A stretch of 64,000 bases of DNA, taken from contig DASWYF010000048.1 of assembly GCA_036405135.1 (NCBI GenBank), positions 186,001 through 250,000 on the forward strand, given 5' to 3'. This document shows, piece after piece, positions 50,505 through 55,689 of this stretch. The position numbers were made by a program, and so were the translations under genes. Position 1 is the stretch's first letter; each line of letters begins with the position of its first letter. Below the pieces are notes generated by a model that saw only the letters and a list, made by a program, of their open reading frames with translations, searched no databases and had not been told where the DNA came from. This DNA comes from Verrucomicrobiia bacterium. Lineage in GTDB: Bacteria > Verrucomicrobiota > Verrucomicrobiia > Limisphaerales > JAEYXS01.

Positions 50505-50524
50505 AAGTTAGCCTTTCCTAACTT
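50505..50524. promoter_or_regulatory. upstream inverted repeat, possible second repressor site
   Basis: AAGTTAG at 50505-50511 and CTAACTT at 50518-50524 are perfect inverse halves with a six-base spacer. They lie seven bases upstream of the -35 box of the metal-uptake operon. The half-site CCTAAC is shared with the operator at 50552-50570. Confidence 0.55.
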
Positions 50525-50597: not shown

Positions 50598-51524
50598 ATG
50601 AAAATGACTTTGCGGACGTGGTTGTTGAGTTTGGCTGGTGCAGCTTTCTTGCTAACGGGACTTAGCCCTGCACAGGCGGCCGAGAAAAAACTGAAAGTGG
50701 TCACCACCGTGACAATGATCTCCGATCTGGTGAAGCAGATCGGCGGCAGTCGCATCGAGGTGCAGGAGTTGATGGGGCCGGGCGTGGACCCGCATCTCTA
50801 CAAGGCCACGGCGGCGGACGTCGCCAAGCTGCAACGGGCAGACGTCATTTTCTACAACGGCCTGATGCTGGAAGGGAAGATGCAGGATCTCTTCGACAAG
50901 ATGAGCCGTTCGCGCAAACACATCTACGCAGCATCCGCCGACATTCCCAAGAATCAGTTGCTCCAGCCGGCAGAGTTCGAGGGGCATTACGATCCACACG
51001 TTTGGTTTGAAGTGCCGCTCTGGGAGCAATGCGCCGCAACGGTGACGAAAGGCCTCGTGGCAGCTGATCCGGCGGGCAAAGCCGATTACGAGAAGCGTGG
51101 TGCGGAGCTGCGTAAGAAATTACAGGAGCTGCATCAATGGGCGGTGAAGAAGGCGAATGAGCTGCCCGCGGAGAAACGCATCCTCATCACGAGCCATGAT
51201 GCTTACAATTATTTCGGACGCGCCTATGGTTTCAAAGTGGTGGGCCTGCAAGGCATCTCCACGGTCACTGAGGCGGGCCTCGCGGACATGGTGAAGCTGG
51301 TGGATTTCATCAAGCAGAAGCAGGTGAAGGCCATCTTCGTGGAATCCAGTGTGCCGCCGAATGCGATCCAACGTATCAGCAAGGATTCCGGTGCGAAGAT
51401 CGGTGGTGAGCTGTTCTCCGACGCGATGGGCACGCCGGGCCAGATGGAGCATGGTTATGACCTCGGCACGTATGAGGGCATGATCAAGCACAACCTCACG
51501 ACCATCGTGGAGGCGTTGAAGTAA
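50598..51524 (+). CDS. metal ABC transporter solute-binding protein (TroA/YtgA/ZnuA type)
   Basis: A 308-residue periplasmic protein with a signal peptide (ending PAQAAEK). The four ligand positions of cluster A-I binding proteins are visible: His in GVDPHLYKAT, His in YDPHVWFEV, His in TSHDAYNYFG and Asp in FSDAMG. A His-His-His-Asp set is that of TroA-like Zn/Mn proteins; there is no long His-rich loop as in ZnuA. The gene starts about 30 bases after the predicted transcription start and leads the five-gene uptake operon. The exact metal (Mn, Fe or Zn) is not decided by sequence. Confidence 0.93.
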   Translation: MKMTLRTWLLSLAGAAFLLTGLSPAQAAEKKLKVVTTVTMISDLVKQIGGSRIEVQELMGPGVDPHLYKATAADVAKLQRADVIFYNGLMLEGKMQDLFDKMSRSRKHIYAASADIPKNQLLQPAEFEGHYDPHVWFEVPLWEQCAATVTKGLVAADPAGKADYEKRGAELRKKLQELHQWAVKKANELPAEKRILITSHDAYNYFGRAYGFKVVGLQGISTVTEAGLADMVKLVDFIKQKQVKAIFVESSVPPNAIQRISKDSGAKIGGELFSDAMGTPGQMEHGYDLGTYEGMIKHNLTTIVEALK

Positions 51525-51557: not shown

Positions 51558-52424
51558 ATGAAAACACCCTACGTGTCTCTTGGACTTGTCTGCTTGGCGA
51601 CTACCTTTGCTTCTGCCGCTGAACCTGCTCCCGCAGACAAGACACAATATCACCTCTTCAATGCCACGCCGCGTGAGTTCATGCGAGAGATCTCCACGGA
51701 CCGGCCGGACCTGACGGAAAGCCCTTACACGGTGGATGCGGGGCGTTTTCAGTTCGAGACGGATCTGTGGAATTACAGTTATGACCGGCACAATTCTTCA
51801 CATGCGGATACGCAGGATGAAGCGCACAGCTTTGCCGCTGTGAATGCGAAGGCGGGCCTACTGCACAATCTGGATCTGCACTTCGTGGTGCCGATCTATA
51901 ATCGCATCCGCTCGCATGATTTCTCCACGAGCACGATCACGCGCGATCAGGGCTTTGGCGATCTGACGGTGCGGATGAAGTACAATCTCTGGGGCAATGA
52001 CGGCGGTAAGACGGCGTTCGCGGTGATGCCGTTCGTGAAGTTTCCCACGGCGGCGACAGGCTTGGGCAATAACTCGGTGGAAGGCGGATTAATCTTACCC
52101 TTCGGCATGGAGTTGCCCGGCGGTTGGAGCATGGGGGCGATGCTGGAGTTCGACATACTGCGTGATGGCGCGGGGAGCGGTCATCATCTGGATGTCATCC
52201 AGACGATCACGTTCGGCCATAGCATCGTGGGTGACTTGGGTGGTTATGTGGAATTCTTCAGCGCGAGCAGCACGGAATCACCCACGCCGTGGATGGCCAC
52301 GGTGAACGCCGGTTTGACCTATGGGCTCACTGAGGATATCCAGTTGGATGCCGGTGTGAATTTCGGTGTCACCCGGTCTGCGCCGGATATCAACCCGTTC
52401 ATGGGCATCTCGTGGCGTTTCTGA
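51558..52424 (+). CDS. outer-membrane beta-barrel protein of the metal-uptake operon
   Basis: A 288-residue protein with a signal peptide (ending FASAAEP). STDRPDLTESPYTVDAGRFQFETDLWNY and GFGDLTVRMKYNLWG fit the MetA/phenol-pathway transporter-like porin family; alternating strands continue to the terminal FMGISWRF with a final Phe. A His-rich stretch (YDRHNSSHADTQDEAHSF) may bind metal. It lies between the binding protein (33-base gap) and the ATPase (2-base gap), so it is co-transcribed. An outer-membrane channel for the same metal is the natural inference. Confidence 0.85.
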   Translation: MKTPYVSLGLVCLATTFASAAEPAPADKTQYHLFNATPREFMREISTDRPDLTESPYTVDAGRFQFETDLWNYSYDRHNSSHADTQDEAHSFAAVNAKAGLLHNLDLHFVVPIYNRIRSHDFSTSTITRDQGFGDLTVRMKYNLWGNDGGKTAFAVMPFVKFPTAATGLGNNSVEGGLILPFGMELPGGWSMGAMLEFDILRDGAGSGHHLDVIQTITFGHSIVGDLGGYVEFFSASSTESPTPWMATVNAGLTYGLTEDIQLDAGVNFGVTRSAPDINPFMGISWRF

Positions 52425-52426
52425 AG

Positions 52427-53215
52427 ATGAATGCGAATAATCCAACCTCGCCTATTGGCGAACCCGCTCCGCTGGAGGTTCACGATCTTACGGTCGCTTA
52501 CCAGAAGAAACCCGTGCTGTGGGGCGTGGATGTCACGGTGCCGAAGGGCAATCTCGTAGGCATCGTGGGACCGAATGGCGCAGGGAAATCCACGCTTATC
52601 AAGGCGGCGATGGGCCTGCTGCCCATCAGCAGCGGCTGGGTGAAGGTGTTCGGCACACCACTCAAGGAAAACTTCCGGCGCGTGGGTTATGTGCCACAGC
52701 GCGAATCGGTGGATTGGGATTTTCCCGTGAACGTGATGGATGTGGTGCTGATGGGGCGCTACGGACATCTCGGTGTCTTCCAACGCCCAACGAAGCACGA
52801 CTACGATGTGGCCAAGGCATGTCTCGACAAGGTGAAGATGCTGCCATATGCGAACCGGCAGATCGCGAATCTCAGTGGTGGCCAACAACAGCGCGTCTTC
52901 CTCGCCCGGGCGCTCGCGCAAGAGGCGGACCTGTATTTCATGGATGAACCGTTCGCGGGCGTCGATGCCGCGACGGAAGCGGCGATTATCGAGCTGCTGC
53001 ATGAATTGAAGTCCAAGGGCAAGACCCTGCTCGTGGTCCATCATGATCTCCCGACCGCGCGCAATTACTTCGATATGCTCTTGCTGCTGAACATGCGTGT
53101 GGTGGCTTTCGGACCGACGGAAGAAGTCTTCACTTACGAGTTGCTGCAGAAGACTTATGGCGGACGGCTGACGATTCTGGCCGAAGTCGCCGATGCCGTG
53201 CGGCAAAAGACTTAA
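52427..53215 (+). CDS. metal ABC transporter ATP-binding protein
   Basis: A 262-residue ABC ATPase. Walker A GPNGAGKST, Q-loop PQRESVDWDFP, signature LSGGQQQR, Walker B DLYFMDEPFAG and the switch His in VVHHDLP are all present. The sequence VDWDFPVNVMDVVLMGRYG is typical of the Mn/Fe/Zn group (MntB, TroB, YtgB). ATG 52427 lies two bases after the preceding stop; a GTG five codons earlier overlaps the porin gene and is less likely. Confidence 0.95.
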   Translation: MNANNPTSPIGEPAPLEVHDLTVAYQKKPVLWGVDVTVPKGNLVGIVGPNGAGKSTLIKAAMGLLPISSGWVKVFGTPLKENFRRVGYVPQRESVDWDFPVNVMDVVLMGRYGHLGVFQRPTKHDYDVAKACLDKVKMLPYANRQIANLSGGQQQRVFLARALAQEADLYFMDEPFAGVDAATEAAIIELLHELKSKGKTLLVVHHDLPTARNYFDMLLLLNMRVVAFGPTEEVFTYELLQKTYGGRLTILAEVADAVRQKT

Positions 53216-53224
53216 AGGTGTTCG

Positions 53225-54715
53225 ATGTTTAAACACCATCCATCATCTACCATCCACTATCTACGCTATCTCTTGATAGCGGTCGTGGTGTTTTGGTTCA
53301 CGATAGATGGACATGCAGCGAAGATTGGTGAGATTTCTGAGACGACCATCACGGAACAGGCGATCCGGTTTTTCTCATTTCAAGATCCGGCGGTGAGGTA
53401 TGCGTTGCTGGGTTCCATACTCTTGGGGATTTCTTGCGGGGTGATGGGGAGCTTCATTGTAGTGCGTAAATTGGCGTTGGTGGGTGATGCGCTATCGCAT
53501 GCGGTGTTGCCCGGAGTGGCGTTGGGATTTCTTTGGAACACAACTAAGGATCCGGTGGCGATTTTTGTGGGGGCGACGTTGGCGGGATTGCTGGGCACGG
53601 CGATCGTGGGTGCCATCAAGCACACTACGAAATTAAAAGAGGATGCGGCGCTTGGTTTGGTGCTGGCGGCGTTCTTTTCAGTGGGTATCTGCCTGGTGAC
53701 GATGATCCAGCGGTTACCGACGGGAAATAAAAGTGGTGTGGATAAATTTCTGTTCGGTCAGGCGGCGGCGCTGGGTCCGAATGATGTGAAGCTCATGGCA
53801 ATCGTCACGGTGCTGACGCTCGTGGTCGTCGGGCTCTTCTATAAGCAATTTCTCGTGACGAGTTTTGATGCGGGGTTCGCGCGAGTGACGGGAATTCCCG
53901 TTCAGGTGATGCATTACGTTCTCATGTTGATGCTGGCTTTCGCAGTCGTCATTGCGTTGCAGGCGGTGGGTGTTGTGTTGGTGTCAGCCATGCTCATCAC
54001 TCCGGCGGCGGCCGCATATCTGCTCACGGATCGGTTGCATCGAATGCTTATTCTGGCGGCAGTGTTTGGCATGGTGTCTGGCGCGGCGGGAGCATTCCTT
54101 TCCTTTCTTGGACCGAGTTTGCCGACGGGGCCGTTCATGGTGCTGGGTGCGAGTGCGGTGTTTGGGGCAGCGTTTCTCTTTGGTCCGCAGCATGGCGTGA
54201 TCATGCGCTGGTGGCGGCGGCGTTCGCGCAGTTTGCGCATCCAGCGGGAGAACACCCTCAAGTCCGTCTATCACGTGCTGGAAGCGCGTGATTTCAAACC
54301 GGAAGGTGTCACGGCGACTGAGCTCGCCGAGCGTCGTCGTGAGACGATGGAAGATATCTTGGGTCAGTTGCGTGAATTGAAACGGCATGACCTCGCTACG
54401 TTGCAGGATGATGATCATACGGTTTTCCTCACGCCGGAAGGATGGCAACGCGCTTGCGCTATAGTGCGGAACCACCGCCTGTGGGAATTGTATCTGACGA
54501 ATGCGGCGCAGATGTCCGCCGATCACGTGCATGAAGATGCGGAGAAGATCGAGCACGTGCTGGGTGAGGATGTAGTGCGGCAATTGGAGAAGCGGCTGAA
54601 CTACGCCACGCATGATCCGCATGGAAAACTCATTCCTGGCCAAGCGGATATCCAACGCGGCAGCAATCCGCCTGAGCGTACGGCGGATGCGACGGGATAC
54701 GGGAAACGTACATGA
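53225..54715 (+). CDS. metal ABC permease fused to a DtxR/MntR-type repressor (YtgCR-like)
   Basis: A 496-residue two-part protein. Residues 1 to about 330 are an ABC-3 permease (GDALSHAVLPGVALGF, then MLITPAAAAYLL). Residues 335-472 are a complete DtxR/MntR repressor. The winged helix is VTATELAERRRETMEDILGQL, with the wing near TVFLTPEGW. The dimer and metal region reads NHRLWELYL, HVHEDAEKIEH and DPHGKLIP. Hand alignment to DtxR gives His417, Glu421 and His436 as the ancillary site and Glu440, Glu443 and His444 as primary ligands; Glu440 replaces Cys102, as in MntR. The first-helix ligand (DtxR Met10) appears to be Asn343. In Chlamydia the same fusion is cleaved to release the repressor. 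A matching operator lies at 50552-50570. Confidence 0.93.
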   Translation: MFKHHPSSTIHYLRYLLIAVVVFWFTIDGHAAKIGEISETTITEQAIRFFSFQDPAVRYALLGSILLGISCGVMGSFIVVRKLALVGDALSHAVLPGVALGFLWNTTKDPVAIFVGATLAGLLGTAIVGAIKHTTKLKEDAALGLVLAAFFSVGICLVTMIQRLPTGNKSGVDKFLFGQAAALGPNDVKLMAIVTVLTLVVVGLFYKQFLVTSFDAGFARVTGIPVQVMHYVLMLMLAFAVVIALQAVGVVLVSAMLITPAAAAYLLTDRLHRMLILAAVFGMVSGAAGAFLSFLGPSLPTGPFMVLGASAVFGAAFLFGPQHGVIMRWWRRRSRSLRIQRENTLKSVYHVLEARDFKPEGVTATELAERRRETMEDILGQLRELKRHDLATLQDDDHTVFLTPEGWQRACAIVRNHRLWELYLTNAAQMSADHVHEDAEKIEHVLGEDVVRQLEKRLNYATHDPHGKLIPGQADIQRGSNPPERTADATGYGKRT

Positions 54716-55689
54716 GCGAATTCATTCCACCATTTGACTGGCAGCAGCACGTCATCGCGCCGTGGACTGAGGGCTTTGGGGCGAACATCCTCATCGCGCT
54801 CATGGGTTTCTTCGTGGCGACGGCGTGCGGATTGGTGGGCAATTACTTGATGATGCGGCGCATGGCGTTGGTGGGGGATGCGATCAGCCATAGTGTGCTG
54901 CCGGGTATCGCGATTGCGTTCTTATTGTCCAAGAGCCGGGGAACATTAGCTATGTTCTTGGGCGCGCTCGTCGCGGGTGTGGTGACGACGATTCTTATCG
55001 AGGTCATCCATAAGAAAAGTCGTGTGAAGCAGGATGCGGCGATCGGCATCGCGTTCACGAGCTTGTTCGCGGTGGGCGTGATCATCATCAGCATGTTCGC
55101 GTCGCAAGTGGATCTCGATCAGGAGTGCGTGCTGTATGGCGAGATTGCGTTTGTGCCGTTCGGCGATCCGGTGAAGTTGAGCGAGACGTTCAGTGTTCCG
55201 TTGCCGGTCTTGCGCATGGGGATTGTGGCGGTCATCACTTTGGCGTTTGTCGTGCTGTTCTACAAACAACTGCTGGTGAGTTCGTTTGATGCAGGCTTGG
55301 CGACATCGTTGGGCATCAATGCGACATTCGTACATTACGCGTTGATGTGCTGGCTCTCGATCGTGGTGGTGAGCGCGTTTGAATCTGTGGGCGCGGTGTT
55401 GGTTGTGGCGATGTTGATTTTGCCGGGAGCGACGGCGTTTATGCTGTCGCATCGGTTGCCGGTGATTCATGCACTCACGGTTTTGGTTGCGGCGTTGAGT
55501 TCATTGCTCGGAGTGCATCTGGCTACGTGGCTGAACTGCTCGATGGCGGGCGCGATGGTGGTGATGGCGAGTTTCTTGTTCGCGTTGGCGTGGGTGTTCA
55601 GTCCCTTGGAGGGCTTGTTAGTGCGGTGGATACGACAACGCAGGACACATCTGGAGCCGCCGGAGGGGATTGTGGATGGGGTGAAATGA
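54712..55689 (+). CDS. metal ABC transporter permease (second subunit, YtgD-like)
   Basis: A 325-residue ABC-3 permease with about nine helices. MRRMALVGDAISHSVLPGIAIAF and VVAMLILPGATAFML are the family signatures. It overlaps the fused permease-repressor gene by four bases (ATGA) and has no regulatory domain. The two permeases probably form a heterodimer, as in chlamydial YtgC/YtgD. A hairpin at 55728-55752 ends the operon region. Confidence 0.95.
   Translation: MSEFIPPFDWQQHVIAPWTEGFGANILIALMGFFVATACGLVGNYLMMRRMALVGDAISHSVLPGIAIAFLLSKSRGTLAMFLGALVAGVVTTILIEVIHKKSRVKQDAAIGIAFTSLFAVGVIIISMFASQVDLDQECVLYGEIAFVPFGDPVKLSETFSVPLPVLRMGIVAVITLAFVVLFYKQLLVSSFDAGLATSLGINATFVHYALMCWLSIVVVSAFESVGAVLVVAMLILPGATAFMLSHRLPVIHALTVLVAALSSLLGVHLATWLNCSMAGAMVVMASFLFALAWVFSPLEGLLVRWIRQRRTHLEPPEGIVDGVK

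Follow-up and report, generated by a model that had tools for sequence, protein, structure and literature searches.

A permease-fused DtxR-fold domain in Verrucomicrobiota that has apparently lost DNA binding and may act as a metal-sensing regulator of its own importer

A metal importer in the window, a 64,000-nucleotide stretch of a Verrucomicrobiia genome, has a permease fused to a DtxR/MntR-fold domain that, judged from its sequence, has apparently kept the metal-sensing half of the repressor and lost the DNA-reading half. We consider it probable that the fused domain senses metal while tethered to the transporter and inhibits metal import by feedback (trans-inhibition). Permease-repressor fusions have so far been read through Chlamydia, as repressors awaiting cutting, and if DNA binding is gone from most of them, the reading as repressors freed by cutting is wrong for them.

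The fused gene lies between the genes for the ATPase and the second permease and is third among the transporter genes (Table 1). Pfam, matches to solved structures and fold searches agree on an ABC-3 permease fused to a DtxR/MntR-fold domain, as the initial annotation had proposed from the letters. A profile check of the C-terminal segment found DtxR similarity through PF02742, and residues 335–490 matched the solved DtxR-family proteins SloR (1.6e-15), DtxR (3e-14) and IdeR (4e-14). When the AlphaFold model of the fused protein (mean pLDDT 88.6) was used in a fold search, the first part returned PsaBC and the second DR2539, IdeR and DtxR. The related proposal that the transporter itself carries the metal sensor holds in that a permease-DtxR fusion with an intact metal site is found in a YtgCR-like gene order. 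The description of the domain as a complete repressor is borne out for the fold, but not for DNA binding, where PF01325 is unmatched and the usual DNA-contact positions are replaced.

Table 1. Features of the metal-importer operon, with positions in the window.
Feature	Positions	Strand	Evidence
Type A operator AAGTTAGCCTTTCCTAACTT (AAGTTAG-N6-CTAACTT)	50505..50524	.	Exact palindrome; candidate site
Metal-binding periplasmic protein (ZnuA/TroA/YtgA type)	50598..51524	+	PF01297, E 1.4e-80
Outer-membrane-barrel-like protein within the operon	51558..52424	+	PF13557, E 7e-22
ABC ATPase of metal importer	52412..53215	+	PF00005; top-ranking NCBIfam hits, below cut-off, are Mn/Fe ABC ATPase models
Fused permease-DtxR protein	53225..54715	+	ATG start; 496 aa; one open reading frame
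ABC-3 permease part, residues 55–319	53387..54181	+	PF00950, E 1e-71; PsaBC is the top structural match
Junction helix, residues 325–354	54197..54286	+	AlphaFold pLDDT ~92–97; 18-residue spacing in 123/123 fusions
Remnant winged-helix segment, residues 355–402	54287..54430	+	Predicted fold; no PF01325 match; weakly conserved; contact positions replaced
DtxR metal-binding and dimerisation domain, residues 403–471	54431..54637	+	PF02742 (Fe_dep_repr_C), E 1e-22
Second ABC-3 permease	54712..55689	+	325 aa; unfused here; PF00950, E 2.5e-50

An assembly join or frameshift, or a sequencing error joining two genes, was excluded because the fusion recurs in many independent genomes. A scan of genome contigs gave 64 related loci, and in almost all of these the two parts likewise share one uninterrupted frame; the fusion recurs in more than 60 other Verrucomicrobiota contigs, and a match over both parts was found in at least 53 of 388 genomes sampled across Verrucomicrobiota. 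The sole apparently split copy (L068) has undetermined bases. The initial annotation was correct to place the YtgCR architecture outside Chlamydia, but this is neither new nor rare, because Thompson et al. (2012), as relayed in a review, had already reported orthologous permease-repressor fusions in 11 bacterial phyla (PMC5599777). Long upstream open frames at L016, L018, L020, L022 and L077 raised the candidate of ATPase-permease-DtxR triple fusions, which was rejected on the locus checked, L077, where the ATPase lies in another frame. Several MAG records carry taxon labels that look wrong, one labelled Klebsiella pneumoniae (L018) and six labelled Akkermansia muciniphila (L012, L013, L014, L022, L028 and L067), as their operons group with Pedosphaera/Limisphaerales-type Verrucomicrobiota. 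A protein similar to the barrel-like one within the operon occurs in 27 related loci and is perhaps an outer-membrane metal entry route.

The two halves of the fused domain differ in how they have been kept. Across 85 scans, made up of a set of 70 fused proteins, of which almost all are first permeases, and a set of 15 second permeases carrying the domain, with four sequences common to both, PF02742 was matched every time (70/70 and 15/15), and PF01325, the DtxR DNA-binding family, was matched in none at E 0.01. PF01325 was likewise unmatched in the Pfam scan of the window protein, and it was present in 15/15 stand-alone DtxRs adjoining such operons. We compared fused and stand-alone copies standing side by side in the same genomes, and thus at the same divergence, in 20 loci. 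Mean pairwise identity of the recognition helix (residues 375–387 in the window protein, followed by the wing at 391–402) was 0.33 in fused versus 0.70 in stand-alone copies, and that of the dimer/metal region was 0.84 versus 0.86, figures that rest on a MAFFT alignment of samples sharing descent. The residues equivalent to the IdeR/DtxR DNA contacts S37, P39, T40 and Q43 (PMC8464063) are largely uniform in the stand-alone DtxRs and scattered in the fused set, and in the window group two of these positions are mainly Glu or Asp. The PF01325 DNA-binding domain expected of a DtxR-family repressor was matched neither in the window protein nor in the 84 other fusions. An acidic recognition helix was considered as a general mark of the fusions and rejected; it holds only near the window, whereas the more distant fusions are basic in this region (mean net charge about +3), which could reflect nucleic-acid or membrane contact. 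In the window clade, helix 2 of the winged-helix segment shows fair conservation (0.68), and the winged helix-turn-helix fold is still predicted, so some function of the segment remains; speculatively, helix 2 may make contact with another part of the importer, such as the ATPase.

Transcriptional control of the operon appears to lie with a separate protein. The palindrome ahead of the operon precedes the binding-protein gene by slightly more than 70 bp, was absent from 100 dinucleotide-shuffled versions of the window and is the only exact copy in the genome; an equivalent operator stands at the same place in related loci. Its core, TTAG-N6-CTAA (type A), occurs in nearly all loci of the window clade. 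A second form, TTTGA-N4-TCAAA (type B), is found at loci that have a stand-alone DtxR next to the operon, as well as at some others, and is equal to the Treponema TroR boxes (oligonucleotides in PMC2628430). Type B sites were seen 5' of the binding-protein gene, near TroR-like DtxR genes, in L034–L066, L102, L117, L121, L125 and L139–L141. A stand-alone DtxR/MntR is present in each genome checked, and the window genome encodes one other DtxR-family protein, an MntR-type regulator with a good PF01325 match (G000:C33:28155-28601).

A search of 46 genomes for close orthologues of this MntR found them in 11/11 type A genomes versus 1/20 exact type B genomes (Fisher p 1.4e-7), a significance overstated by counting related genomes as independent, with a co-occurrence partly confounded by shared descent and with six of the 31 genomes being those on which the operator rule was first checked. 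Among 11 loci whose operator was read after prediction, type A was present in 6/6 predicted to have it and 0/5 not predicted to have it, with a recognisable type B site in only two of the latter five. The MntR orthologues have a nearly invariant recognition helix in common. The type A operator of the window is thus probably bound by the stand-alone MntR, whose gene lies elsewhere in the genome, and as a stand-alone protein suffices to explain the operator, the fused domain is not needed for it. Genome-wide, no type A regulon was detected, as matches with up to two mismatches did not exceed a reversed-pattern control; one near match to the site adjoined unrelated genes.

These results bear on the proposal that, as in YtgCR, proteolysis separates the C-terminal domain from the permease and the freed domain, once metal-loaded, represses the operon; the initial annotation had inferred such a release. 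The gene order is that of ytgABCD with the same fusion, an operator-like palindrome precedes the operon, the winged-helix fold persists in the model, and a 28-kDa chlamydial YtgR product has been reported to bind the ytg promoter when metal is present. However, the DNA-binding half lacks the family signature in all 85 scans, the operator is conserved while the recognition helix is not, operator type tracks the stand-alone regulator, and the junction is predicted to be a rigid helix of invariant length rather than a loose linker. We therefore regard release as a repressor as unlikely in these fusions.

The metal site, by comparison, is kept. The ligands H417, E421, H436, E440, E443 and H444 align as first described, so that the protein carries PF02742 with all six ligands, as DtxR/MntR repressors do. 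The full set is fixed in the 71 closest fusions bar one E440D, and H417, E421, E443 and H444 are invariant over a 70-row alignment. Asp often or usually replaces H436 and E440 in a divergent group of fusions, and all ligands are invariant in the fused second permeases. Glu440 had been put forward as a sign of Mn-type sensing, but is at best a weak marker: because the adjacent stand-alone DtxRs share Glu at this position (36/36) and TroR is reported to respond to both Mn and Fe, E440 alone does not decide the metal. The MntR-type regulator in the window genome suggests Mn. Asn344, at the DtxR Met10/MntR Asp8 position, was considered as a hallmark of the fusions and rejected, since Asn occurs in 30/36 adjacent stand-alone DtxRs.

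The connection between the two parts appears to be stiff. AlphaFold predicts a single helix that begins at the cytoplasmic end of the permease and continues as DtxR helix 1, and a similar helix (residues 295–324) in the model of a fused second permease; fold searches of both models return PsaBC and DtxR-family structures. Exactly 18 residues separate a conserved Gly after the last membrane helix from the helix-1 position in all 123 fusions, and the segment from helix 1 to H417 varies from 58 to 108 residues in the same proteins. A change in length would be tolerable in a loose, cleavable linker, but not in a mechanical connection. A domain that merely received or buffered imported metal at the cytoplasmic exit, or stabilised transporter pairs, without any gating, would also suit the fixed ligand set and the position at the cytoplasmic end of the permease; neither the invariant junction length nor a whole DtxR dimerisation fold is obviously required for this, and such an acceptor or assembly role seems rather improbable.

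In some genomes the fusion is doubled. In 13 other genomes the counterpart of the second permease carries a DtxR domain too, so that both permeases end in one (L102, L105–L110, L112, L113 and L115–L118), and the operons of L111 and L114 have a single permease with such a domain. First and second permeases are strongly separated in the permease tree (100/99), which has long outgroup branches and in which fused and unfused second permeases are intermixed. Because both permeases carry the domain in the double-fused loci, a DtxR dimer inside the transporter would be the simplest arrangement there. Three DtxR-type domains per locus, one on each permease and an adjacent stand-alone regulator, were seen in L102, L106–L110 and L117. 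The window genome encodes two further ABC-3 permeases, both unfused (G000:C22:270242-271012 and G000:C36:98483-99283). We give least weight to a titration or tethering role, in which the fused domain would pair with the stand-alone DtxR/MntR, hold it at the membrane and make repression depend on how much transporter there is or on its state: conservation of the dimerisation half equals that in stand-alone proteins, DNA binding is apparently lost, and the two forms coexist in 20 Opitutales loci and others, but mixed pairing is less likely because the stand-alone regulator of the window genome is MntR-type rather than TroR/DtxR-type, and for transporters with the domain on both permeases, a pair formed within the transporter is the simpler arrangement.

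We favour feedback inhibition because the parts that have been kept are a metal sensor and a dimeriser, stiffly attached, and because MetNI and ModBC offer a precedent; by domain identity and conservation, the importer has a substrate-sensing cytoplasmic domain of a pairable kind, as trans-inhibited importers do. In the proposed mechanism, a former DtxR/MntR repressor would now serve the importer as a regulatory domain that senses metal in the cytoplasm. High cytosolic metal, most likely Mn2+ and perhaps Fe2+, would fill the six-ligand site, which would alter DtxR helix 1, predicted to be continuous with the cytoplasmic end of the permease, and favour pairing of DtxR domains beneath the transporter. 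The permease/ATPase cycle would then slow or lock, as in MetNI and ModBC, and transcription of the operon would be handled separately by MntR, encoded on another contig, acting on AAGTTAG-N6-CTAACTT. In single-fused operons, one DtxR domain is expected per permease pair, and the domains would therefore pair across transporters or work unpaired. The winged-helix fold still present in the predicted structure, the fair conservation of helix 2 in the window clade, the basic recognition-helix region of the more distant fusions, and the reported cleavage and DNA binding of chlamydial YtgCR count against feedback inhibition.

We tentatively extend this proposal, with less confidence than for the window itself, to Verrucomicrobiota and possibly other phyla with such fusions. 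There, a DtxR-family repressor may have become a valve for Mn/Fe/Zn ABC importers that depends on metal and no longer binds DNA; some lineages would have it on both permeases, with the dimer inside the transporter, and YtgCR would be a related protein whose domain has kept its repressor role as well. If true, no earlier case of a DtxR-fold domain serving as the feedback valve of a metal importer is known to us, the domain would be a natural example of a transcription factor turned into a transporter domain, and cells would have a rapid control of Mn/Fe uptake at the protein level in addition to the slower transcriptional one.

Known systems share parts of this arrangement. Chlamydia trachomatis YtgCR (CT069), encoded in ytgABCD and compared here through its published description, has the same ABC-3 permease with a C-terminal DtxR-like domain, and the order of binding protein, ATPase, fused permease and second permease is common to ytgABCD and the window. 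Published work describes cleavage and DNA binding of YtgR and reports that homology reveals no further DtxR family member in Chlamydia; in contrast, the fusion in the window lacks the DNA-binding signature and a stand-alone DtxR/MntR is present. The contrast raises the question of whether YtgCR gates its own transport before cleavage. Treponema troABCDR pairs the same type of transporter with a DtxR-family regulator, and its TroR boxes are the type B operators of related loci; TroR is a separate protein, whereas fused type B loci often have a separate DtxR with an intact helix-turn-helix beside the fused domain. DtxR, IdeR, MntR, SloR and DR2539 have the fold, the metal-binding and dimerisation domain and the six ligand positions in common with the fused domain, but they are soluble DNA-binding proteins, and the fused version is without PF01325 and a FeoA/SH3 domain and is attached to the membrane through a predicted rigid helix. 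In MetNI and ModBC, added cytoplasmic domains pair as imported substrate accumulates and stop the cycle (PMC10710835); those domains are on the ATPase and have unrelated folds, whereas the domain in the window is a former repressor carried on the permease.
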